This document shows, one piece after another, positions 49,668-64,000 of a DNA stretch of 64,000 nucleotides. The position numbers and the translations under genes are program-made. Under the pieces are notes generated by a model. It had not been told where the DNA came from. It made no database searches and was given only the letters and a program-made list of their open reading frames with translations. The DNA comes from Denitromonas ohlonensis (lineage in GTDB: Bacteria > Pseudomonadota > Gammaproteobacteria > Burkholderiales > Rhodocyclaceae), in contig NZ_VMNI01000007.1 in NCBI RefSeq assembly GCF_007625205.1, positions 310,001 to 374,000 on the forward strand, written 5' to 3'. How positions within the stretch are numbered: the stretch's first letter is position 1; the number at the start of each line of letters is the position of its first letter.

Positions 49668-50153
49668 ATGGGTGCAAGAGATTATTTCGGTAGCCTTCTT
49701 CTGAAGGAACTGCTCAAGGGACTGGCGCTGACCGGGCGGCATTTCTTTGCGCGCAAGATCACCGTGCAGTTCCCCGAAGAGAAAACGCCGCAGAGTCCGC
49801 GTTTCCGCGGCCTGCATGCCTTGCGTCGCTACCCGAACGGGGAGGAGCGATGCATTGCCTGCAAGCTTTGCGAAGCGGTGTGTCCGGCGATGGCCATCAC
49901 GATCGAGTCGGATCAGCGCGACGATGGTTCGCGCCGCACGACGCGTTACGACATCGATCTGACCAAGTGCATTTTCTGCGGTTTCTGTGAAGAAGCCTGT
50001 CCGGTGGACGCGGTCGTCGAGACGCGGGTATTTGAGTACCACGGCGAACAGCGGGGCGATCTGTACTACACCAAGCAGATGTTGCTGGCGGTGGGTGATC
50101 GAAACGAAGCACAGATTGCCAAGGATCGTGAGACCGAGGCGAAGTACCGGTAA
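49668..50153 (+). CDS. nuoI: NADH-quinone oxidoreductase subunit I
   Basis: 161-aa 23-kDa subunit with two [4Fe-4S] clusters (N6a, N6b), ligated by [12 protein letters not shown] and [12 protein letters not shown]. The amphipathic N-terminal helix contacts NuoH. Start ATG 49668 follows GAGGCGAACG; the frame extends into nuoH but that is overlap only. Confidence 0.97.
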
Positions 50154-50199
50154 AAGCGCGTAAGGCGAGGCCGCGATTGGCCTCCGGAGATACTCGAGC

Positions 50200-50802
50200 A
50201 TGGAATTCAAGACTTTCGTTTTTTACCTTTTGGCCACCGTGATGGTGTTCGCCGCCTTGCGCGTCGTTACCGTACGCAATCCGGTGCACGCCGCGTTGTT
50301 TCTGGTGCTGACCTTCTTCAACGCCGCGGGTATCTGGCTGTTGCTGCAAGCCGAGTTTCTGGCCATCGTGTTGGTGATGGTGTATGTCGGCGCGGTCATG
50401 GTGCTGTTCCTGTTCGTGGTGATGATGCTCGACATCAATATCGACCGACTGCGTGAGGGCTTCTGGAGCTACCTGCCGGTGGGCGCGGTGGTTGGCGTCA
50501 TCATGCTGGCTGAAATGGTGCTGGTGCTGAGCGGTCCGTACTTCGGGCTGGATGCCATGCCGGAACCGCCGGCTGCGCAGGCCGGTTACAGCAATACGCG
50601 TGAGCTGGGCCGGGTGCTTTACACCGAATACGTCTATCCGTTCGAGCTGGCGTCGCTGGTGCTGCTGGTGGCGATGGTCGCGGCGGTGGCGCTGACGTTG
50701 CGCAAGCGCACCGGTTCGCGCCATCTGGATCCGGCGCAGCAGATTGCCGTCAAACGTGCCGATCGCATCGCGCTGGTGTCGATGCCGGCCGAAAAAGAAT
50801 AA
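50200..50802 (+). CDS. nuoJ: NADH-quinone oxidoreductase subunit J
   Basis: 200-aa membrane subunit (ND6 homologue) with five hydrophobic helices. Conserved [18 protein letters not shown] and [16 protein letters not shown] segments, the latter containing the pi-bulge helix. CCTCCGGAGA precedes the start. Confidence 0.96.
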
Positions 50803-50836
50803 TCGAAGCGCGCGGGTCGCTTTCAGGGAGTCATTG

Positions 50837-51142
50837 ATGCTTTCGCTTTCCCACTACCTCATTCTGGGCGCAATACTTTTTGCGATCAGCGTGGTCGGCA
50901 TCTTCCTCAACCGGAAGAATCTCATCGTCCTGTTGATGGCGATCGAGTTGATGCTGCTTTCGGTGAATCTGAATTTTGTCGCGTTCTCCCATTACCTTGG
51001 GGATCTCGCGGGCCAGATCTTTGTGTTCTTCATCCTCACCGTGGCCGCAGCGGAAGCTGCAATCGGCCTGGCGATTCTGGTGGTGTTGTTCCGCAATTTG
51101 CGCACCATCCATGTGGATGATCTGGATAGCCTCAAGGGTTAA
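50837..51142 (+). CDS. nuoK: NADH-quinone oxidoreductase subunit K
   Basis: 101-aa membrane subunit (ND4L homologue), three helices, with the conserved membrane Glu in [16 protein letters not shown] and the second Glu in [17 protein letters not shown] precedes the ATG. Normal length. Confidence 0.97.
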
Positions 51143-51154
51143 GGAAGCGTCTCG

Positions 51155-53179
<2,025 letters not shown>

Positions 53180-53248
53180 TTGCGCCATGCCATACACGGT
53201 TACAACGAATGAAATGCGTCGAGCTGACGCCTTGAACGGATAGTTACG

Positions 53249-54727
53249 ATGACGGGTATGCCTCTTCTCAGTCTCGCGATCTGGGTGCCGATCGTCGGCG
53301 GCCTGCTGGTGCTTGCCACAGGTTCCGACCGAAACGCCCCCATGGCGCGATCTATGGCCTTGCTCACTTCGGTGATCGGCTTCCTCGTGACGATTCCGCT
53401 GTTCACTGGCTTCGACAACAGCACCAGCGCCATGCAGTTTGTCGAACTGGCCCGCTGGATTCCGGCATTCAACGTCCATTACTACCTCGGGGTGGACGGC
53501 TTGTCGGTGCTCTTCGTCTTGCTCAACAGCTTCGTCACCATCCTGGTGGTGGTCGCCGGCTGGGAAGTGATCAAGACCAAGGTCGCTCAGTACATGGCGG
53601 CCTTCCTGATCATGTCAGGCCTGCTCAACGGCATTTTCTCGTCGCTCGACGGGCTGCTGTTCTATGTGTTCTTTGAAGCCTCGCTGATCCCGCTGTACCT
53701 GATCATCGGCGTGTGGGGCGGTGCAAACCGGGTGTATGCCGCGTTCAAGTTCTTCCTCTACACCCTGGCCGGCTCGCTGCTGATGCTGGTGGCGCTGATC
53801 TACCTGTTCATGCAGAGCGGCAGCTTCAGCATTCTCGACTGGCACGAGCTGCCGATCGCCATGGGCGCACAGAATCTGCTGTTCTGGGCCTTCCTGATTG
53901 CCTTTGCGGTCAAGGTGCCGATGTGGCCGGTGCATACCTGGTTGCCAGACGCCCACGTCGAGGCGCCTACCGGCGGCTCGGTGGTGCTGGCCGCCATCGC
54001 GCTGAAGCTCGGCGCCTACGGCTTCCTGCGCTTTACCTTGCCCATCGTGCCTGATGCCTCGCAAGCCATGGCGCCGATGATGATCGTGCTGTCGCTGATT
54101 GCGGTGGTGTACATCGGCTTTGTCGCGCTGGTTCAGGCCGACATGAAGAAGCTGGTGGCGTATTCGTCCATCGCTCACATGGGCTTCGTCACGCTCGGTT
54201 TCTTCATCTTCAATCCGCTGGGCATCGAAGGTGCGCTGGTGCAGATGATCTCGCACGGCTTTGTGTCCGGCGCGATGTTCCTGTGCATCGGGGTGCTCTA
54301 CGACCGCATGCATTCGCGTCAGATTGCTGACTACGGTGGTGTGGTCAACACCATGCCGAAATTCGCAGCCTTCTTCATGTTGTTCGCCATGGCCAATGCG
54401 GGCCTGCCGGGCACCAGCGGTTTCGTGGGTGAATTCATGGTGGTGCTGGGCGCGGTGCAGTACAACTTCTGGGTGGCGTTTGCCGCCGCGACAACCTTGA
54501 TTTTGGGTGCCGCTTACACCTTGTGGATGTATAAGCGCGTGGTTTTTGGTGCTGTTGGCAACGATAAGGTGGCCAAGCTTGAGGACATCAACGGGCGCGA
54601 ATTTGCGTTTCTGGCCGTTCTCGCCGCTTGTACCCTGATCATGGGTATCTATCCGCTGCCGGTGACCGAAGTGATGCACGCTTCGGTAAACGAACTCTTG
54701 CAGCACGTTGCAACGAGCAAGCTTTGA
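53249..54727 (+). CDS. nuoM: NADH-quinone oxidoreductase subunit M
   Basis: 492-aa antiporter-like subunit (ND4 homologue), about 14 helices. The Glu helix ([16 protein letters not shown]) and Lys helix ([21 protein letters not shown], in part) are conserved. GGATAGTTACG precedes the ATG; a 37-bp gap follows before nuoN. Confidence 0.97.
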
Positions 54728-54764
54728 GCATCCAGCTGAACAAATTTACGGGATTGGTCCGACG

Positions 54765-56258
54765 ATGAACTTTGTAGTCCCTGACTTCGCCCCTGCCGCC
54801 ACAGAGATCTTTGTGGCCGGCATGTCGCTGGTGATCTTGCTGCTGACCGTGTTCATGCGTGAATCTGCGCGCAACATCGGTTATGTGCTGACGCAACTGA
54901 CCCTGATCGTAGCCGCGCTACTCACTATCTTCACCATGGACGGGCAGGTGCGCGTCACCCTCAGCGACATGTATGTTGATGACCTGATGGGGGATGTGCT
55001 CAAGATCCTGATCTGCTTCTCGGTGATCACGGCGCTCATCTATGGCCGGGGCTATGCGGCCGACCGCGGTTTCGATCGCCCGGAATACCATTTGCTCGCC
55101 TTGTTCTCGACGCTGGGCATGATGGTGATGGTCACCGCCAATCACTTCCTGTCGCTGTATATCGGCCTCGAAATGCTCTCGCTGTCGCTCTACGGCCTGG
55201 TGGCCTTCGACCGCGACTCGGCACGCTCGACCGAAGCGGCCATGAAGTACTTCATCCTCGGCGCGCTGGCCTCCGGCCTGCTGCTCTACGGCATGTCGAT
55301 GGTGTATGGCGCCACCGGCAATCTGTCGCTGTCTGGTGTGGCCCAGGCCATCTACAACCAGGCGGCCGTGTATGACGGCGTCTCGAGCAAGACCGTGCTG
55401 ATGTTCGGTCTGGTGTTCATCGTCGCCGGCCTCGCCTTCAAGCTCGGCGTGGTGCCCTTCCACATGTGGGTGCCCGACGTATATCACGGCGCGCCGACCT
55501 CGGTCACCCTGATGATCGGTACCGCGCCCAAGCTGGCCGCCTTTGCCATGGCCATGCGCCTGCTGGTGGGGGGGCTGTTCGACCTGGCAGAGCATTGGCA
55601 GACCATGCTGATGTTGATGGCCGTCGGCTCACTGGTGCTCGGTAATATTGCCGCCATTGCGCAGACCAACCTCAAACGCATGCTGGCCTACTCGGGTATT
55701 TCCCACATGGGCTTCCTGCTGCTTGGCCTGTTGTCGGGTGTGGTCGACGGGGATCGCTTCAATGCGCTCAACGCCTACACCTCGAGCATGTTCTACGCGA
55801 TCGCCTATGTGATCATGAGCCTGGCGTCCTTCGGCATCATCATCCTGCTCTCGCGCTCGGGCTTCGAAGCCGAGAACATCGACGACCTCAAGGGCCTCAA
55901 CAAGCGCAGCTCGTGGTTTGCCGCGATGATGATGATCATCATGTTCTCGATGGCCGGCATCCCGTTCTTCATCGGCTTCTTCGCCAAGCTGTCGGTGCTC
56001 CAATCGCTGGTCGCGGCCGACATGGTGTGGCTGGCCGTGCTGGCAGTCATGATGTCGCTGGTCGGCGCGTTCTACTACCTGCGTGTGGTCAAGGTGATGT
56101 ACTTCGACGAACCGGTCGATACCGCCCCGATCCACGCCGCATCCGATATTCGCGTGCTGCTGTCCGCCAATTGCCTGGCCATCGCATTCCTCGGCCTGCT
56201 GCCGCAGCAGCTGATCGATCTGTGCCAGCTGGCACTGGTGGCGAGCTTCCAGGGCTGA
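54765..56258 (+). CDS. nuoN: NADH-quinone oxidoreductase subunit N
   Basis: 497-aa antiporter-like subunit (ND2 homologue). [15 protein letters not shown] and [20 protein letters not shown] mark the proton path helices. Start ATG 54765 ([10 protein letters not shown]) is the family-like N-terminus; the frame reaches into nuoM. It is the last gene of the operon, closed by the terminator at 56282. Confidence 0.97.
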
Positions 56259-56281
56259 TCGTCGATTAGATGAAACACGAG

Positions 56282-56313
56282 CCGCACGGTCCGCAAGGGC
56301 CGTGCGGTTTTTA
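56282..56313 (+). terminator. terminator of the nuo operon
   Basis: Stem CCGCACGGTCC / GGGCCGTGCGG (one G-T pair) with loop GCAA and a TTTTT tract, 23 bp after the nuoN stop. Confidence 0.92.
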
Positions 56314-56342
56314 TTTGAATGCCTGTTGTCCGGGAGGCTTGG

Positions 56343-56894
56343 ATGCTCATACAGAATCAGGATAGCCTGACCGAAACCCAGCTCGATTCCGAGCGCGTGT
56401 TCGACGGCCTACTGCTCAAGGTCGAACGTGACCACGTGTGTCTGCCCGATGGCACGACCGCGGTGCGCGAATACATCCGTCACCCCGGCGCGGTCGTGGT
56501 CATTGCTGCACTACCCGATGGTCGCTTGATTTTGGAGCGCCAGTTCCGCTACCCGCTCCGTCGTGCCTTCATCGAACTGCCCGCCGGCAAGATCGATCCG
56601 GGCGAAGATATCGAAGCCTGTGCCCGCCGCGAGCTGCGCGAAGAAGTGGGCTACGAGGCGGCGCGCTGGACGCATCTGGGCACCTTGCACCCCTGCATCG
56701 GCTATTCCGACGAGCGGATCGAGGTCTTTCTCGCGCAGGACCTGACCCATGTCGGCGAGCAATGGGACGAAGGCGAATTCCTCGAGATCCTCTCGCTCAG
56801 CCCCGCCGAGCTGGACGCCGCCGTGGCGAGCGGCGACATCACCGACGGCAAAACGCTCTCTGCGCTGTACATCGCCCGCGCGCGCGGCATCTAG
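56343..56894 (+). CDS. NUDIX hydrolase, ADP-ribose pyrophosphatase-like
   Basis: 183-aa NUDIX enzyme. The full Nudix box is present (GKIDPGEDIEACARREL followed by REEVGY), with the conserved upstream RQFRYPLRRAFIELPAG typical of ADP-ribose pyrophosphatases (NudF type). It likely cleaves ADP-ribose or related nucleotide sugars to AMP plus sugar phosphate; exact substrate not fixed. ATG 56343 with GGGAGG 6 nt upstream is chosen over ATG 56319. Confidence 0.9.
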   Translation: MLIQNQDSLTETQLDSERVFDGLLLKVERDHVCLPDGTTAVREYIRHPGAVVVIAALPDGRLILERQFRYPLRRAFIELPAGKIDPGEDIEACARRELREEVGYEAARWTHLGTLHPCIGYSDERIEVFLAQDLTHVGEQWDEGEFLEILSLSPAELDAAVASGDITDGKTLSALYIARARGI

Positions 56895-56923
56895 GGTTCT
56901 GCGTTGCAACTGCCGCTACTGCT

Positions 56924-56943
56924 GTCGGGCGGGTTTCAACCCG
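56924..56943. repeat. short palindromic repeat, copy 1
   Basis: The 20-bp sequence GTCGGGCGGGTTTCAACCCG with a CGGGTT-TC-AACCCG hairpin recurs exactly at 58318-58337. It lies in the 140-bp gap between the NUDIX gene and the convergent FGE-like gene. Confidence 0.65.
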
Positions 56944-57034
56944 ACGCGGTATGGCGACTTTGAAAGCACAACACCAGGCCGGGCAGGGCGCGTAGCCACG
57001 GTGGTTTGAGGCCAGGTTCAGGCGCGCACGCTGA

Positions 57035-58030
<996 letters not shown>

Positions 58031-58317
58031 GATGCTCCCTGTTGCGTCGCCTGTCGCAGCGCAGGCCGAGTCTGGCGGGCGCTCGCCTCACCCTTGAGGC
58101 ACGCCACGTCCGTGTGTGAGCGCGCAGCATGCCATGCGGGGCCGCCGCGCGGGAGCAAATATCTCGGAATCCCCTTGAATGCGATTGCGCATGCAATGGC
58201 CGCTGGTACCACGCCCGCAGCTCGCGCATCGATCGCAAGGGTCTTTTTTCGGAAGGCAACAAAAGCGTCACCTCAACGACGGTTGAAGCCAGCCTGACGC
58301 ATCCCTGCCCACATCGC

Positions 58318-58337
58318 GTCGGGCGGGTTTCAACCCG
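58318..58337. repeat. short palindromic repeat, copy 2
   Basis: Exact second copy of the 20-bp palindromic repeat at 56924-56943, here extended to GCGGGTT-TC-AACCCGC. It sits in the 299-bp spacer 58031-58329, just past the EamA gene stop. The remainder of that spacer shows no gene; it should hold the promoter of the FGE-like gene. Confidence 0.65.
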
Positions 58338-59268
58338 CCATCGACGCCTCTTCGCGCTCTACGCCATTCGCCCGAGCCGCCCCTCGATTCCTCGGTACCG
58401 ATACCCAAAGCGCCGCGCCGGCGATCATCACGCCACCCAGCCAACCGCTCGCACCGAGCGGCTCGCCCAACCAGAGCACGGCAAACAAAGCCCCCCACAG
58501 CGGTTCACTGCCGAGCAGCAGGGCGACCTGGGTCGGGCTGCTTTGTGCCAGCGCCCGGTTCATGGCCCAGAACGCAAACAGCGTGCAAGCAAGTGACAGG
58601 TAAGCGAGCGCGACCCAGAATGCGCCCGCCACAGGCAACGCCGGCACGCCCTCGGTCAAGGCCAGCACCGCCAGTGAGCCACCCCCCACCATCAAGCCCT
58701 GCGCGGCGGTGAGGCCGAGGTGATCCACCGCCTTGCCACGCAGCAGGCGGGTTGTCAGGCAAGCCTGAAAAGCTCTTAGCAGCGCCGCCAATAGCATGAG
58801 GGCGTCCCCGCCATTGAGCCCGCCGGCCGCCACATCGGTGAGCAGCCAGGTGCCCAGTAGCGACACCCCCGCGGCCAGCCACAGTCGTGCGGCCGGGCGG
58901 CGGCCAAACCATGCCCATTCCACCGGCGGCGTCAGCAGCAGGCACAGGCTGATCAAAAACGCCGCATTGCCCGCACTCGTGTGCGCCACGCCCGATGTTT
59001 CAGCAAAGAAGATCGCCAATAGCCCAAGGCTGGTCGGCGCCGCCACCACCAGCGTGAGCCGCCGCTGCGCGGTCGGCAGGCGCAGCCACCAGGGCGCCAG
59101 CACCAGCGCGGTCAGCAGAAAACGGATCGCGATCACCCCTGCCACTGGGTACCAGGCGAGGGCGGTTTTCACCACGCTGTAGCTGCTGCCCCAGATGGCG
59201 GCGGTGAGCAGCAGCAAGACGGCGGGTGGCAGCTGGGGCAGGGCAGTGGCGGCGTGCAGGCGGATCAT
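58330..59268 (-). CDS. EamA (DMT superfamily) transporter
   Basis: 312-aa inner-membrane protein with about ten helices in two EamA repeats (AAIWGSSYSVVKTAL; then LGSEPLWGALFAVLWLGE). DMT members export amino acids, metabolites or drugs; the substrate is unknown. It is divergent from a LysR regulator, which may control it. Confidence 0.9.
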   Translation of the reverse strand: MIRLHAATALPQLPPAVLLLLTAAIWGSSYSVVKTALAWYPVAGVIAIRFLLTALVLAPWWLRLPTAQRRLTLVVAAPTSLGLLAIFFAETSGVAHTSAGNAAFLISLCLLLTPPVEWAWFGRRPAARLWLAAGVSLLGTWLLTDVAAGGLNGGDALMLLAALLRAFQACLTTRLLRGKAVDHLGLTAAQGLMVGGGSLAVLALTEGVPALPVAGAFWVALAYLSLACTLFAFWAMNRALAQSSPTQVALLLGSEPLWGALFAVLWLGEPLGASGWLGGVMIAGAALWVSVPRNRGAARANGVEREEASMAG

Positions 59269-59367
59269 CGTTTCGGCTCACTCAGCGTGGTTGCATCGAC
59301 TGGCAAGCAGTATGAAACTATGCGATTGAGGCGATAATCCGCTGTACAAGCAAAGGATTTGTGCGCT
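59269..59367. promoter_or_regulatory. divergent regulatory region between eamA-type and lysR-type genes
   Basis: This 99-bp region should hold both promoters. A GATAAT (59333-59338) is a possible -10 for the regulator. GCGAT appears twice around 59322-59336. No clear T-N11-A LysR site is certain. Confidence 0.4.
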
Positions 59368-60300
59368 GTGAGAACAAATGAACTGCTCCCCCTGTTGTCG
59401 GATCTGGCCGCGCTGGTGAGCGTGACCGAAGCCGGCTCCTTCAGCGCCGCCGCCCGCGCGCAGGGGACCACGCCGTCGGCCGTCAGCCGGCAGATTGCCC
59501 GCCTCGAAGCCGCGCTCGGCCTCACCGTGCTCGAACGCAGCACCCGCCGCCTGCGCCTCACCGCCGGCGGGCAGGAAGTGCTGCGCCACGCCCGCAGCAT
59601 GCTCGACGCCGCCCACGCCGCCTGCGACGGCGCCGCCAGCCACGCCAGCAATGTCGAAGGCCGCGTCCGCATCGCCGCCCCCAAGGCCGCGCTGCGCCAG
59701 CTCATCCACCCCCAACTGCCGGCCCTGCTTGATGCCTACCCCCGGCTCGACCTCGAATTGATGATGAGCGACCAGGCCGTGGACCTCATCGCCGAAGGCG
59801 TCGACATCGCCCTGCAATTCGGCGACCCTCCGCCGGGCTTCGTCGCCCGCCCCTTCATGGAAGTGCGCACGCTGCTCTTCGCCAGCCCCGCCTATCTCGC
59901 CCGGCAAGGCACCCCGCAACAACCCGCCGACCTTGCCCGGCACAGCTGCCTGCACCTGGCCGAACTACCCGGCGACGACGAATGGTGCCTGGTGCGCGGC
60001 GCCGAGCGCAGCGTGGTGCACGTGCGCGGCCGCTACGCCAGCAACCACAGTGAAATGCGACGCGACGCCGCCGAAGCCGGCTACGGGATCGCCTGCCTGC
60101 CCGACTTCACCACTCGCCAGCCACTCACCAAGGGCACGCTGGTGCCCGTGCTCCCCGGCTGGCAACTGCTCGGGCGCTATCAAGGCAGCAACTGGCTCAT
60201 CTACCACGCCGATCACTATCGTGCGCCGAGGGTGCGGGTGGTGGTGGATTTCATGTTGGGGATTGCGGACCGGCTGGGGAGGGGGGCGGGAACGTCATAG
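59368..60300 (+). CDS. LysR-family transcriptional regulator
   Basis: 310-aa LTTR. N-terminal winged helix with FSAAARAQGTTPSAVSRQIARLE and a C-terminal effector-binding domain of normal size (VRIAAPKAALRQLIHPQLPALL; LACLP-like AGYGIACLPDF). GTG 59368 is preferred (AAGGA 10 nt upstream); a TTG at 59359 is only 1 nt from that site. Divergence from the EamA gene suggests that gene as its target. The coding sequence is noticeably richer in GC than its neighbours. Confidence 0.92.
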   Translation: MRTNELLPLLSDLAALVSVTEAGSFSAAARAQGTTPSAVSRQIARLEAALGLTVLERSTRRLRLTAGGQEVLRHARSMLDAAHAACDGAASHASNVEGRVRIAAPKAALRQLIHPQLPALLDAYPRLDLELMMSDQAVDLIAEGVDIALQFGDPPPGFVARPFMEVRTLLFASPAYLARQGTPQQPADLARHSCLHLAELPGDDEWCLVRGAERSVVHVRGRYASNHSEMRRDAAEAGYGIACLPDFTTRQPLTKGTLVPVLPGWQLLGRYQGSNWLIYHADHYRAPRVRVVVDFMLGIADRLGRGAGTS

Positions 60301-60644
60301 CGATTGCGATGCTTGCTATGGGGTCGACGCGATTGAGAGCGACCGATGTCAGGTTGACGGCATCGTGGTCGTGCTGCGAAACGAAGGGGGTGGGACGGTT
60401 TTCTTGGCCGGAAGCGTCGTTGGTGTTCTGTCCAATGACTGATGCCTCCCGACCCGATCCTGTTTCTCGTAAATGCGCGAGGGCATCATGTAGCTTGGGT
60501 TGAGCGCAGCGAAGCCCAAGGTTTATCCGCGCAGCTGTGGAACGCCGAGTGTTGGGCTTCCTTCGTCAGCCCAACCTACGCCTGCTGAAAGCATCCTGGC
60601 AGCCTCAACGTATTCGTGCCGCTCACCGGGTGGGGCGTGCCAGT
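60301..60644. other. 344-bp non-coding stretch
   Basis: No supported gene. The stretch contains the REP-like element 60490-60579 and otherwise only short overlapping frames without family resemblance. It separates the LysR gene from the convergent cytochrome gene. Confidence 0.6.
60490..60579. repeat. REP-like inverted repeat element
   Basis: About 90 bp. Left arm GTAGCTTGGGTTGA (60490 on) is the imperfect complement of the right arm ending TCAGCCCAACCTAC (to 60579). Each arm also folds on itself (TTGGG ... CCCAA; GAGCGCAGCGAAG-like core). Such GTAGGTTGGG-type elements are dispersed in many beta- and gammaproteobacterial genomes; that comparison is from memory. Confidence 0.7.
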
Positions 60645-61082
60645 CTATTTCACTTTGTTTTTCCACATCGCGTGGCATGAAACGCAACTGCTTGTCAGTG
60701 CGTGGGCTGCGTTGCCGGCCTCAATCCAGTCGTTGTTCATCGCTGCCGAAACGACGCTTTTGGAGTGCAGGTCAAGCAGTGCGTCGAATGCGAAGAGGCT
60801 TTGCTTGAATGCGGCCTGATCGGTCTCTTGCATGATGTCCCACGGTTTGTGTTTGGGGGCCGGGTGCGTGAGGATGAAGTTCGCGCCGACGTCCACCATC
60901 TGCTTGTTCTCCCGAACGATACCTTCAAGGATTGTGCTCAAGCTCTTCCCCATGACTTCCATCAATTCGCGATAGGTCATATCGGCTCTTGTTTTGGAAG
61001 ACACCAATTGCTCGGCGGTTCGGTCTTGCCCGATAGCAACGGCTGCGTGCAGCATCAGCATCACGAGGATGACTTTTTTCAT
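60645..61082 (-). CDS. periplasmic c-type cytochrome, cytochrome c'-like
   Basis: 145-aa protein with a cleavable signal peptide (MKKVILVMLMLHAAVAIGQ) and one haem-binding motif CVSCH at residues 133-137, right at the C-terminus. The body is predicted helical. A single C-terminal CxxCH in a four-helix-bundle-sized protein is the layout of cytochromes c'/c-556. Function is unknown: NO binding, electron transfer or stress roles are possible. It is divergent from the His-rich/HupE cluster and shares its upstream region. Confidence 0.8.
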   Translation of the reverse strand: MKKVILVMLMLHAAVAIGQDRTAEQLVSSKTRADMTYRELMEVMGKSLSTILEGIVRENKQMVDVGANFILTHPAPKHKPWDIMQETDQAAFKQSLFAFDALLDLHSKSVVSAAMNNDWIEAGNAAHALTSSCVSCHAMWKNKVK

Positions 61083-61120
61083 GGTCTCAGTTCCAAGGGA
61101 CGAAGTTGTCGGAGGGGGAG

Positions 61121-61148
61121 ATTATTGAACGACGGTTGGGCTGCGCAA
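61121..61148 (-). promoter_or_regulatory. possible promoter of the cytochrome gene
   Basis: On the minus strand TTGCGC (61148-61143), 16-bp spacer, AATAAT (61126-61121), about 39 bp before the start codon. Confidence 0.4.
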
Positions 61149-61150
61149 TG

Positions 61151-61176
61151 AATGAACGGATTGCCGTCAGTTCATT
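61151..61176. promoter_or_regulatory. dyad in the divergent region (candidate operator)
   Basis: AATGAAC (61151-61157) and GTTCATT (61170-61176) form a 7-bp inverted repeat with 12 bp between, next to an AT-rich tract. It lies just upstream of the cytochrome promoter -35 box. No known Fur, Zur or NikR box was recognised. Confidence 0.35.
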
Positions 61177-61297
61177 TGTTTATTAGTAAAAACTTATTCC
61201 GATTTGAAAAGGAAGTATTTGCATGGATCAAGCAATTGATGTTCATGCGAATTGCTTGCCAACAGCGAGCGGTCGCGCGACACAATGGAGCGATAAG

Positions 61298-61326
61298 TTG
61301 CGCGTCGGCGACGCATGGTCTATAAA
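61298..61326 (+). promoter_or_regulatory. possible promoter of the His-rich/HupE cluster
   Basis: TTGCGC (61298-61303), 17-bp spacer, TATAAA (61321-61326). It would start transcription near 61333, inside the longer reading frame from 61223 and before ATG 61376. Confidence 0.45.
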
Positions 61327-61375
61327 ACTCGCTCCAATCTTGAATCCTGCACCGAGAACTGAATCGACTCGTCGT

Positions 61376-61801
61376 ATGCTTATGACCCACATCGCCTCGC
61401 TGGCTGCTTTTCGGCGACACGCTGCTGCGTTGGCACGGGTGATGATCATTTTCGTCACGCTGTTTTATGGCTGGACGAATTACGCAAACATTGTGTCTGC
61501 GTCGCACGAGCCGGCTGCCTGGCTGACGCATGCTGACAGCCAGACGCTCTTGGTCACGGCAGACGACCATGCCCATGCACATGACCACGATGATTTGTTG
61601 ATGGTCGAGCATGATGGCGGCGCCCATCAGCATGGTCACAACGCGCTCGATCACAGCCACGACAAACAGAATCTTCCCTATCGAGGTGAACACCTTACGC
61701 TTGACAGCGCGACACACTGGGAGCGGACGCCCCAGGCCAGTGTGCCGCCCGGTCCAAGTTTTCCCTTCGAGCGTCCTCCCAGAGTCATTCCGGTCGTCTA
61801 G
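61376..61801 (+). CDS. small His-rich membrane-anchored protein
   Basis: 141-aa protein: a basic N-terminus, one hydrophobic helix (about residues 20-36, ARVMIIFVTLFYGWTNYA), then a periplasmic-type tail very rich in His and Asp (DDHAHAHDHDD; HQHGHNALDHSHD) and a Pro-rich end (PFERPPR). The design recalls small CzcI-like proteins that accompany metal-efflux genes, but homology is not established. The frame is open from ATG 61223, which has a good AAGGAAG site and would give 192 aa; ATG 61376 is preferred because the extra 51 residues are polar and a good promoter lies between the two starts. It is followed by a HupE/UreJ-like gene. Probable metal-binding role is inference. Confidence 0.65.
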   Translation: MLMTHIASLAAFRRHAAALARVMIIFVTLFYGWTNYANIVSASHEPAAWLTHADSQTLLVTADDHAHAHDHDDLLMVEHDGGAHQHGHNALDHSHDKQNLPYRGEHLTLDSATHWERTPQASVPPGPSFPFERPPRVIPVV

Positions 61802-61863
61802 CAGCACTGGCCCGTTGTTTGCATGACAACGTGGCTCGCTCTCAATTTGATCGGAATTGACTC

Positions 61864-62598
61864 ATGACTACACCGTTTAACGAACGGGTGCGGCTGTTTC
61901 GGCTGTCCCGTTTCGACACAGTTCGCCAACTCATTGTTGGCGTATTGCTCACTGTGCTGTTCAGCGCAGTGGCTCACGCCCATGGTGTCGCTGATGGCGA
62001 CAAGGGCTACATCCAGGAAATCACAGGCACGCATCTGCTGCCCTTTACCTATCTGGGCGCCAAGCACATGGTCACCGGCTACGACCATCTGCTGTTCCTG
62101 GCCGGGGTGGTCTTCTTTCTCTACAAGCTGAAGGACATTGCGCTTTACGTCAGCCTGTTTGCCGTTGGGCATTCGCTGACCATGTTGTATGGCGTCTATG
62201 CCGGCGTGAACGTTAACCCTTACATCATCGACGCAATCATCGGTTTGTCGGTGGTGTACAAGGCCCTCGACAATCTCGGCGCCTATCAGCGCTGGTTTGG
62301 CGTTCGGCCCAGTACGCGCGCGGCTACCTTGATCTTCGGCCTGTTCCACGGCTTCGGTCTGGCGGCGAAGATCCAGGAGTTTGAAATCGCGCGCGATGGG
62401 CTGTTGCCGAACCTGTTGGCCTTCAATGTTGGCGTTGAAGTTGGCCAGCTGCTCGCGCTTGGCATGATCTTGATCGTCATGGGCTACTGGCGGCGCACTG
62501 CCTCCTTTCTGAAGCATGCCTATACCGCCAACGTCGCCCTGATGTGTGCCGGATTCCTGCTGATCGGTTATCAGCTCACCGGCCTTGTCGTTTCCTGA
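61864..62598 (+). CDS. HupE/UreJ-family membrane protein
   Basis: 244-aa protein with an N-terminal hydrophobic segment and about six further helices. HupE/UreJ-type motifs are visible: GYDHLLFLAGVVF, VGHSLTMLYG and IFGLFHGFGLAAK, with intramembrane His and Asp. HupE and UreJ are nickel (or cobalt) permeases linked to hydrogenase or urease, but neither system is in this window. The second HupE_UreJ subgroup often sits with metal-related or unknown genes, as here. It is flanked by two His-rich anchored proteins, likely one transcription unit. Confidence 0.85.
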   Translation: MTTPFNERVRLFRLSRFDTVRQLIVGVLLTVLFSAVAHAHGVADGDKGYIQEITGTHLLPFTYLGAKHMVTGYDHLLFLAGVVFFLYKLKDIALYVSLFAVGHSLTMLYGVYAGVNVNPYIIDAIIGLSVVYKALDNLGAYQRWFGVRPSTRAATLIFGLFHGFGLAAKIQEFEIARDGLLPNLLAFNVGVEVGQLLALGMILIVMGYWRRTASFLKHAYTANVALMCAGFLLIGYQLTGLVVS

Positions 62599-62618
62599 AT
62601 TCCGCGGAGTTTCATTCC

Positions 62619-63344
62619 ATGTACAACACCAATCTTCCGACGCGCGCCGAACTGCCGACCTCGGGCCAGTTGCTGCGCTCCACCGGGTTGGCGGCGCTGA
62701 TCGCCGCGGGCCTGCTCATCACCACCGTCCTGCCCGCCGAATACGGCATTGACCCGACCGGCGTGGGGCGCACCCTCGGCCTGACCCAGATGGGGACGAT
62801 CAAGACATCGCTGGCGACTGAAGCGCAAGCCGGCGAAGTCGGCCACGCCCCGGCTCCGGCTCCGGTGGTGGCAACTGCGCCGAGTGCGCCGGCAGTCGTG
62901 GATCACGGCCATGACCATGGACACGCTGCCGATGGCGGACACTCGCATGACGCCGCCCCTGCGACCACGCCAGTGGCCGGAACACAGCCGCAAGCCGCCC
63001 CGGCAGCGGCGGAGCCAGTGCGCGAGCATACCGTCACGGTTTCGCTCAAACCCGGACAGGCAGCAGAGATCAAGCTGTCGATGGACAAAGGCGCAGCGGT
63101 GCGCTATTCATGGTCAGCCTCGGGTGGCGGTGTGAACTACGACACCCACGGAGACCCGGTCAATGCACCCAAGGGCTTCTATCATGGGTACGGAAAAGGG
63201 CGCAACGAAACCGCACAGAAGGGCACCTTGCAGGCGGCCTTCGATGGCAAGCATGGCTGGTTCTGGCGGAATCGCTCGGGGGGCGACGTCACCGTGACGC
63301 TGAAAACCGAAGGTGACTACGGGCAGATCGAGCGCGTGCTTTAA
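62619..63344 (+). CDS. His-rich 'transmembrane anchor' protein of unknown function
   Basis: 241-aa protein: one N-terminal helix (about residues 24-43, TGLAALIAAGLLITTVL), the segment LPAEYGIDPTGVGRTLGL, a flexible Ala/Pro/His linker with DHGHDHGHAADGGHSHD, and a C-terminal beta-rich domain (about 155-241) with KPGQAAEIKLSM, GGVNYDTHGD and KHGWFWRN. The wording after the helix matches proteins usually annotated only as 'transmembrane anchor protein'. It lies 20 bp after the HupE-like gene. The His linker could bind Ni, Co, Zn or Cu; the C-terminal domain may sense or bind a ligand in the periplasm. Both are inferences. Confidence 0.75.
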   Translation: MYNTNLPTRAELPTSGQLLRSTGLAALIAAGLLITTVLPAEYGIDPTGVGRTLGLTQMGTIKTSLATEAQAGEVGHAPAPAPVVATAPSAPAVVDHGHDHGHAADGGHSHDAAPATTPVAGTQPQAAPAAAEPVREHTVTVSLKPGQAAEIKLSMDKGAAVRYSWSASGGGVNYDTHGDPVNAPKGFYHGYGKGRNETAQKGTLQAAFDGKHGWFWRNRSGGDVTVTLKTEGDYGQIERVL

Positions 63345-63383
63345 GCCTTCGTCCTCCGCTTCGTATCGAGGCAGCCTGCAATC

Positions 63384-63407
63384 TCGCTGGCCCATCGGGG
63401 CCAGCGA
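63384..63407. terminator. hairpin between anchor protein and EamA gene
   Basis: Perfect 10-bp stem TCGCTGGCCC / GGGCCAGCGA with loop ATCG, 39 bp after the anchor gene stop. There is no T tract, so termination may be partial. Confidence 0.5.
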
Positions 63408-63422
63408 ACGGAGCGTTCATTC

Positions 63423-64000
63423 ATGCATCGCAGTGTTGCGTATGCCTTGCTCGCGGCGATTCTCTTTGGCGCCAGCACACCGTTTGCAAAAATGCTGGTG
63501 GGGGCAATGTCGCCCCTTCTGCTGGCCGGTGTGCTGTATCTGGGCAGTGGTGTCGGGCTGACACTGATCCGCGCGGCACGTGATCGCGGTTGGACGCCTT
63601 CCGGTTTGTCGTGGCGGGAGTGGCCGTGGTTCATCGGGGCGATCCTTTTCGGCGGTGCCCTGGGGCCGGTTGCATTGCTCTTCGGCCTCACCCATACGAG
63701 CGGGGCTGCCGCATCCTTGTTGTTGAACCTGGAAGCGGTTCTCACCGCAGTCATTGCCTGGGTGGTGTTTCGTGAGAACGCGGATCGCCGCATTGTGCTC
63801 GGCATGCTGGCGATTGTCGCCGGTGGCGCGGTGCTCGCGTGGCCGTCATCGGCAGAGGACGGTTCCGCCGGGACCTGGATGGGGTCGCTGGCTGTTATCG
63901 CCGCCTGTCTGTGCTGGGCAATCGACAACAACCTCACGCGCAAGGTCTCGACAGCAGATGCGCTTTTCGTTGCCGGCATCAAGGGCCTGACTGCGGGGTC
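63423..64000 (+). CDS. EamA (DMT superfamily) transporter, cut by window edge
   Basis: At least 192 codons of a DMT-type permease starting MHRSVAYALLAAILFGAS, with an internal EamA repeat (GAAASLLLNLEAVLTAVIAWVVF, in part). The first helices and the start of the second repeat are present; the 3' end lies outside. ATG 63423 has GGAG upstream. It may be co-transcribed with the His-rich/HupE genes across the hairpin at 63384. Substrate unknown. Confidence 0.85.
   Translation, partial: MHRSVAYALLAAILFGASTPFAKMLVGAMSPLLLAGVLYLGSGVGLTLIRAARDRGWTPSGLSWREWPWFIGAILFGGALGPVALLFGLTHTSGAAASLLLNLEAVLTAVIAWVVFRENADRRIVLGMLAIVAGGAVLAWPSSAEDGSAGTWMGSLAVIAACLCWAIDNNLTRKVSTADALFVAGIKGLTAG

Follow-up and report, generated by a model that had tools for sequence, protein, structure and literature searches.

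A histidine-rich, CutF-like gene ahead of a HupE_UreJ_2 membrane protein in Denitromonas ohlonensis: a probable nickel/cobalt-resistance module

Why are a small His-rich protein, a HupE-like permease, a membrane-anchored protein and an exporter-like permease encoded in a row at one end of a 64,000-nucleotide stretch of Denitromonas ohlonensis DNA (assembly GCF_007625205.1, contig NZ_VMNI01000007.1, positions 310,001 to 374,000; hereafter the window)? The five open reading frames (ORFs) that an initial annotation, made from the letters alone, had claimed there are all present in the ORF list. Four, on the plus strand, constitute the core cluster: HIS (61376..61801, 141 aa, His-rich and CutF-like, from the ORF list and neighbour comparison), HUPE (61864..62598, 244 aa, a HupE_UreJ_2 membrane protein), ANCH (62619..63344, 241 aa, membrane-anchored) and a drug/metabolite transporter (DMT) permease starting at 63423. 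The fifth, a divergent cytochrome gene, is no regular part of it. The cluster is probably a module for nickel/cobalt resistance, controlled by co-translational sensing of the metal; the computed support comes from gene content, conservation, context, RNA pairing and protein folds.

The first gene gives the main clue. The start of HIS was placed by the analyst at the ATG at 61376, within a longest ORF of 192 aa. Its N-terminus is basic, then hydrophobic and then VSA, judged by eye to be a signal peptide; a His-rich middle and the C-terminal FPFERPPRVIPVV follow, and the candidate metal ligands are His only. CutF is a nascent exported copper sensor which opens a stem shielding the Shine-Dalgarno sequence of the next gene, and CutF-like proteins with only His-rich motifs adjoin HupE/UreJ genes, on the upstream side, according to the available part of PMC9973294. 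By the CutF-like criteria given there, HIS is short enough (141 aa, limit <150 aa), has PP inside its last 15 residues and is followed on the same strand, 62 nt 3', by HUPE (limit <=1000 nt). The putative slow-translation site is formed by the Pro-Pro codons at 61775..61780. Of 66 distinct HUPE loci, 38 have a CutF-like HIS, by the analyst's rule, ahead of HUPE. A basic residue precedes PP in 40/40 junction proteins, PP itself being the selection rule and two of the proteins (L071 and L109) having been misassigned.

With the CutF/cutO system of Rhodobacter capsulatus (available part of PMC9973294) HIS shares small size, putative export, candidate metal ligands, a C-terminal proline motif, a short intergenic gap and, by prediction, a stem shielding the Shine-Dalgarno sequence of the next gene. 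HIS differs in having His rather than Cys ligands, in the absence of a DUF2946 match and in preceding a HupE-type permease in a nickel/cobalt setting. Moreover, the 5' arm of the stem lies here in the last codons of HIS, whereas the available text places the cutO stem-loop between the genes. HIS fits a CutF-like nascent-chain sensor or regulator better than a metal buffer.

RNA folding predicts the long-range stem as follows, all on the plus strand. A 17-base 5' arm within the HIS frame, 61780..61796 (centroid 61782-61796), begins with the third base of the second Pro codon and pairs, around an inner intergenic hairpin at 61809..61836, with a 3' arm at 61848..61863 that covers the HUPE Shine-Dalgarno GGAA (61853-61856) and extends to the start codon. 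A CutF-type stem shielding the ribosome-binding site is thus predicted. Its minimum free energy is -39.8 kcal/mol, compared with -26.2 (standard deviation, sd, 3.0) for 200 dinucleotide shuffles (z -4.52), and 0/200 shuffles reach it.

This pairing is locus-specific. Since RNAalifold had yielded only three pairs, an alignment-free test was applied. The 40 initial junctions, minus L071 and L109 and with 14 of the 15 plasmid loci added (L141 lacks HIS), gave 52, from which seven were removed as >80% identical and L032 for its short gap, leaving 44. In this set the duplex of each HIS tail with its own HUPE Shine-Dalgarno segment averages -12.63 kcal/mol, against -8.88 (sd 0.36) for permuted partners (z -10.4; 0/20000 permutations), -9.25 for dinucleotide-shuffled tails and -9.12 for reversed Shine-Dalgarno segments. 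Non-overlapping control segments remain below 2 sd: the tail with HUPE codons gives z -1.8, the HIS middle with the Shine-Dalgarno segment -1.8 and the HIS middle with HUPE codons -1.7. Intergenic segments alone have a mean z of -1.52 (44 junctions). HUPE starts that follow a HIS gene fold with a mean z of -1.24 (n=33), those without HIS with -0.41 (n=25).

Conservation and genomic context point to metal resistance. ANCH loci occur in alpha-, beta-, gamma- and deltaproteobacteria and in one Zixibacterium metagenome-assembled genome (record titles), and an ANCH match was found in 21/274 genomes of a class-wide draw. Neighbourhoods were compared in 53 genome loci, which are among the matches listed by the ANCH pattern scan (the scope of every count out of 53). 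HUPE lies directly upstream of ANCH, or is fused to it, in 47 of them (46 adjacent, one fused); in the other six, HUPE is split into two ORFs (L024, L038), ANCH is split in two (L065), a contig edge intervenes (L025, L054) or a fragment is present (L069). The order HIS-HUPE-ANCH, whose recurrence the initial annotation had proposed to check, is found outside the D. ohlonensis genome, and the dispersal of the three genes elsewhere, which would have spoken against that annotation, is not seen: they are co-located. An NreB-, CnrT- or NicO-type gene is nearby in 35/53 loci. By family, the neighbours are NreB-type major facilitator superfamily (MFS) proteins (25), RcnR/CsoR (13), NicO/RcnA-like proteins (9), CzcA-type resistance-nodulation-division (RND) proteins (9) and CnrT-type DMT permeases (6). 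These names rest on one or two scanned members per group. The scanned NreB-type member has an MFS_1 match and none to an NreB model, the name being taken from neighbours, His-rich tails and the cluster in the available part of PMC5557971; the scanned NicO/RcnA-type member has no Pfam match and matches NCBIfam PRK10019 at 3.3e-6, below cut-off. Genes in neighbour loci were called by a longest-ORF rule, with artefacts that include antisense ORFs (cluster c3).

Relatives of both proteins also occur on plasmids, hospital ones among them, with 480 HUPE and 392 ANCH records. Counts for the two are equal in Klebsiella (148), Enterobacter (55), Pseudosulfitobacter (31), Acinetobacter (21) and Pseudomonas (15); Rhizobium (37) and Sinorhizobium (25) rank in the top ten genera for HUPE alone. 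In 15 loci picked for spread from 60 of the 480 HUPE records, metal efflux or transport genes are near 13 (nine annotated as nickel/cobalt; exceptions L135 and L138) and a metal-sensing repressor is near 11. Many of 60 of the 392 ANCH relatives come from human samples, labelled hypothetical or 'transmembrane anchor protein'. The Klebsiella version was matched by megablast in only 13 of 5,426 E. coli genomes.

A published expression result bears on the metal. In Sphingobium sp. ba1, according to the available part of PMC5557971, 10 mM nickel induces a cluster that contains NreB, NreA and CnrCBA-like genes, in which a HupE/UreJ-domain gene shows the highest up-regulation; the likeness to the present loci is one of gene content, not of sequence comparison. 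In the sphingomonad loci L040, L072 and L141, HUPE follows an RND gene without a CutF-like HIS, and the Sphingobium induction therefore supports the metal link, not the RNA switch. By extension, nickel or cobalt would be the metal in D. ohlonensis itself.

The last gene of the cluster agrees with this. Annotated initially as a DMT permease, it does match EamA and runs on past the window end: 63423..64000 (plus strand) holds the N-terminal 192 of 348 aa, and the gene ends at L002:8469 (loci of the comparison are numbered with L). It is 60.6% identical over 96% (tblastn) to CnrT of Cupriavidus metallidurans pMOL28, or 52% by BLASTP, where the tail is misaligned, and its last 60 residues include 22 His. 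CnrT of pMOL28 is a nickel diffusion facilitator. By family, close sequence relation and His-rich tail the window permease is CnrT-like, and nickel efflux would follow by analogy. The same tail, with 22-24 His in the last 60 residues, is found in 11 of 12 CnrT-type proteins, the twelfth being truncated where its locus stops. No locus holds both an NreB-type and a CnrT-type gene (26 and 12 loci, L022 and L105 being on one contig and kinship being uncorrected), which suggests that they are interchangeable partners. The NreB-type protein of L029 ends in a CnrT-like tail (it scores 174 against L106, compared with 71.6, sd 9.4, and at most 110 for 500 shuffles), as if the His-rich tail had moved between transporter superfamilies. 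The cluster thus resembles cnrCBAT and nccCBA-nreB of Cupriavidus (pMOL28 and pMOL30; available part of PMC7019866) in its CnrT-like or NreB-like exporter and differs in having HIS-HUPE-ANCH in place of, or beside, the RND pump. A 17-kb cnr stretch gave no tblastn match to HIS, HUPE or ANCH.

HUPE was correctly recognised as a HupE/UreJ-type permease, matching PF13795 at 1.3e-54 (184.5 bits, cut-off 24.5). PF04955 (HupE_UreJ) is not listed for it at E up to 1; 9 of 23 relatives match that family at E up to 10 (best 0.002), and the HUPE profile matches no PDB sequence. The resemblance of HUPE relatives to the HupE/UreJ nickel permeases of PF04955 is therefore distant, and HUPE differs from these in belonging to PF13795 and in having no hydrogenase operon around it. 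A canonical HupE (PF04955) is encoded elsewhere in the D. ohlonensis genome, at C23:107860-108390, with hydrogenase matches close to it at C23:104197-105540; the window HUPE is therefore a second, separate family. Its putative signal peptide, judged by eye, would be cleaved at AHA/HG to leave an N-terminal His, and in 23 aligned proteins a His directly after the AxA-like site is invariant. Invariant His, Asp, Asn and Glu residues occur in the same alignment, with a His/Asp/Glu set in the helical part. A HUPE-type match was found in 19 of 61 relative genomes, in seven besides the D. ohlonensis genome at E <1e-40.

ANCH has no Pfam or NCBIfam match above cut-off; PKD (0.086) alone is listed for the window protein at E up to 10, and no GOLD/EMP24 model was seen among 25 of the 31 families matched by 48 ANCH members. 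The structure model (pLDDT, predicted local distance difference test, 85.4) consists of a predicted transmembrane helix (residues 15-42; 62661..62744), a disordered linker and a beta-sandwich with pLDDT near 98 (residues 133-235; 63015..63323), all encoded on the plus strand. The sandwich is closest, by fold comparison, to p24 GOLD domains (VIA Z 12.9 to 7rrm and 5azw; root-mean-square deviation 1.5-1.8 over 88-94 residues). ANCH is thus predicted to carry a GOLD-like fold, a likeness that by itself shows no function. Fold and membrane-anchored layout, the latter characteristic of p24/TMED proteins, are shared with p24/TMED GOLD domains; ANCH differs in lacking a sequence-family match. The ANCH profile gave two weak thioredoxin-family matches among PDB sequences (profile positions 89-145). 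H177 and H212 are invariant in 48 aligned ANCH proteins, and the anchored domain also has an invariant Trp. The initial annotation had described HIS and ANCH as single-helix proteins with long His/Asp runs. Each does have one hydrophobic segment and His runs; that of HIS reads as a signal peptide, and the run of ANCH is not conserved, at least 3 His being found in the linker of 4 of 48 aligned proteins, the window's included.

In four distinct loci HUPE and the C-terminal domain of ANCH form one chain: L068 (the same DNA as L120; L120:5809-7062), L121:4657-5886, L122:4770-5948 and L124:4614-5750. All four fusions follow a P-II-like, DUF3240-like gene, and those of L120, L121 and L122 precede a DUF6488-like gene (one member per group scanned). 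A contact between the domains was considered and is not claimed, the pLDDT of the fusion model being 72 and its PDB search giving no match at E up to 0.001. Two further observations concern the pair: L040 carries two HUPE-ANCH pairs within a 12.6-kb stretch, and in L117 (G167:C1:1094293-1094565) the ANCH reading frame is interrupted and no HUPE was found in its vicinity.

HUPE and ANCH could instead act in the envelope as a sensor or accessory, adjusting or stabilising exporters without being a transporter themselves. The anchored domain with its invariant His and Trp would suit such a role, as would the association of the pair with exporters of unrelated superfamilies. The invariant His/Asp/Glu set within the helical part of HUPE, and fusions with no exporter in the chain, argue against it, and this alternative is unlikely.

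The RNA structure could likewise be a by-product of GC-rich sequence, the module being under transcriptional control only, and several observations weigh against the co-translational reading. Applied to 22 junctions aligned with MAFFT, RNAalifold found only 3 pairs and no covariation energy. Predicted pairing of the Shine-Dalgarno sequence with the HIS tail exceeds 0.5 in 24/40 HIS-HUPE junctions and in 11/37 HUPE-ANCH junctions as well, and is thus not universal; only 17/44 junctions beat their own shuffles at 95%, and L029, L037, L061, L127 and others have no special pairing. HUPE also occurs without a valid CutF-like HIS (28/66 loci, by the same rule), and two such starts fold strongly (L072, z -5.37; L040, z -3.01). 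In the available text of PMC5557971, moreover, the nickel-induced HupE/UreJ-domain gene lies inside an RND cluster. HUPE-ANCH junctions do score lower, with average pairing of 0.36 (37 junctions) against 0.58 and mean folding z of +0.83 against -1.20 for the 40 HIS-HUPE junctions (L071 and L109 still included), and with own duplexes of -7.53 against -8.55 for permuted partners (n=29), but they are no like-for-like control: their median gap is 16 nt rather than 57, and their segments therefore often overlap. As to the protein, HIS has no DUF2946 match in Pfam and no Pfam or NCBIfam model above cut-off, the sole Pfam listing being PF20916 at E 0.023, under cut-off; the proline-rich end of CutF was not a strong arrest sequence in a LepB test (available part of PMC9973294). 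As to the context, 15/53 loci, several of them short stretches, have no exporter of the NreB, CnrT or NicO type and no RcnR/CsoR, CzcA or cation diffusion facilitator (CDF) gene, and the D. ohlonensis genome has no RcnR/CsoR or NicO match. Against the by-product explanation stand the pairing specific to each locus, which lies 10 sd beyond permutation while the segment controls reach 1.7-1.8 sd, and the window z of -4.52 against dinucleotide shuffles; it is accordingly improbable.

The surroundings of the module bear on nickel uptake. The initial annotation had found no hydrogenase or urease genes, which holds within the window and is a window-edge effect: a hydrogenase cluster begins about 6.9 kb past the end, and urease is on another contig. 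At L002:14903-19970 (about 70.9-76.0 kb in window numbering) hoxFUYH-like NAD-dependent hydrogenase genes and a maturation protease were read from the ORFs, and the large subunit was confirmed by PF00374 pieces within C2:384208-385440. Between module and hydrogenase, at L002:8707-11655, lies a large, B12-dependent-looking ribonucleotide reductase. None of six related clusters (L105-L110) had a HoxF, HoxU or HoxH match in the 13-19 kb covered around it. The HupE of Rhizobium leguminosarum is reportedly, by the title of a study by Albareda et al., a nickel uptake facilitator. That HUPE should be such an importer for nickel enzymes, with HIS as a periplasmic His-rich metal buffer, draws support from this and from a genome with hydrogenases and urease, one hydrogenase cluster being close by, and is nevertheless improbable in view of the canonical HupE on the hydrogenase contig C23, the lack of Hox matches around L105-L110, the resistance context, the pairing of the HIS 3' end with the HUPE Shine-Dalgarno sequence and the induction of a HupE/UreJ-domain gene by excess nickel (available part of PMC5557971).

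The divergent gene (60645..61082, minus strand) encodes a protein with a signal-like N-terminus and, as first annotated, a single haem site (C-terminal CxxCH). Its description as c'-like found no support, as no Pfam family and no PDB sequence match it at E up to 1. It is a neighbour excluded from the module: in 61 genomes its matches are its own and three at 25-28%, with none in the nearest carriers, G006 and G018. The sole other cytochrome relative among 74 clustered loci, in an unrelated genome, is a weakly similar CxxCH protein (L043:8073-8600, E 4e-4) about 1.4 kb from ANCH. A role as a CnrX-like sensor was rejected, the protein having no similarity to CnrX. Of the metal uptake or buffering system coupled to a periplasmic redox protein that was first proposed, the metal link survives, through the CnrT-like permease, the NreB, RcnA, RcnR and RND neighbours and the available part of PMC5557971. 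Uptake or buffering and redox coupling are not supported: the cytochrome is rarely near, the context is one of resistance and the canonical HupE is separate.

An AT-richer leader with promoters of its own had also been proposed. GC content does fall to 0.50 in two 500-base steps over 60750-61499, a moderate dip, from 0.64-0.72 in the steps from 56750 to 60499 (0.55-0.65 from 50000 to 56999). The promoters were not borne out, a sigma-70 consensus scan of 58000-64000 giving one site (58593) against 1.1 expected. Rfam had no match within 57000-64000. At 58330-60300 the window holds another EamA permease gene, transcribed away from that of a LysR regulator; such pairs are usual, and this one seems unconnected with the module.

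How, then, might the nickel/cobalt-resistance module operate? We infer a sequence of events that includes ribosome pausing, metal transport and contact between HUPE and ANCH. HIS would be a nascent, exported CutF-type sensor with His in place of Cys ligands, to be thrown away after use. At low periplasmic nickel or cobalt it would be completed and exported fast; the 3' end of its message would then fold onto the HUPE ribosome-binding site, and HUPE translation would be poor. At high nickel or cobalt, metal bound to the emerging His-rich segment would slow export, and the ribosome would pause at the C-terminal RPPR codons, covering the 5' arm of the stem and freeing the HUPE start. HUPE, as a membrane permease, would act with ANCH, whose GOLD-like domain would sit in the periplasm, and the CnrT-like exporter with its His-rich tail would take nickel or cobalt out of the cytoplasm. 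More specifically, and only tentatively, HUPE and ANCH may form an undescribed nickel/cobalt efflux or detoxification complex, with an outward-acting HUPE and a GOLD-fold partner, switched by a HIS peptide whose last codons are an anti-Shine-Dalgarno sequence.

The neighbourhood of His-only CutF-like proteins and HupE is already published (available part of PMC9973294), with no RNA structure given there for the HupE group. Searches of one open-access library, in which spellings with a slash may have been missed, returned no account of the locus-specific anti-Shine-Dalgarno pairing, of a GOLD-like partner, of the fusions or of an interchange between CnrT and NreB. If the tentative proposal for HUPE and ANCH holds, the leader would be a nickel/cobalt counterpart of CutF, and plasmids would carry it next to rcnA, nreB, ncc and ncr genes. 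If the main reading of the module is right, co-translational metal sensing would reach beyond copper to nickel and cobalt, with an RNA switch found across Proteobacteria. The HIS and ANCH protein families would acquire a role, and the direction of transport of a HupE-type permease would become testable.

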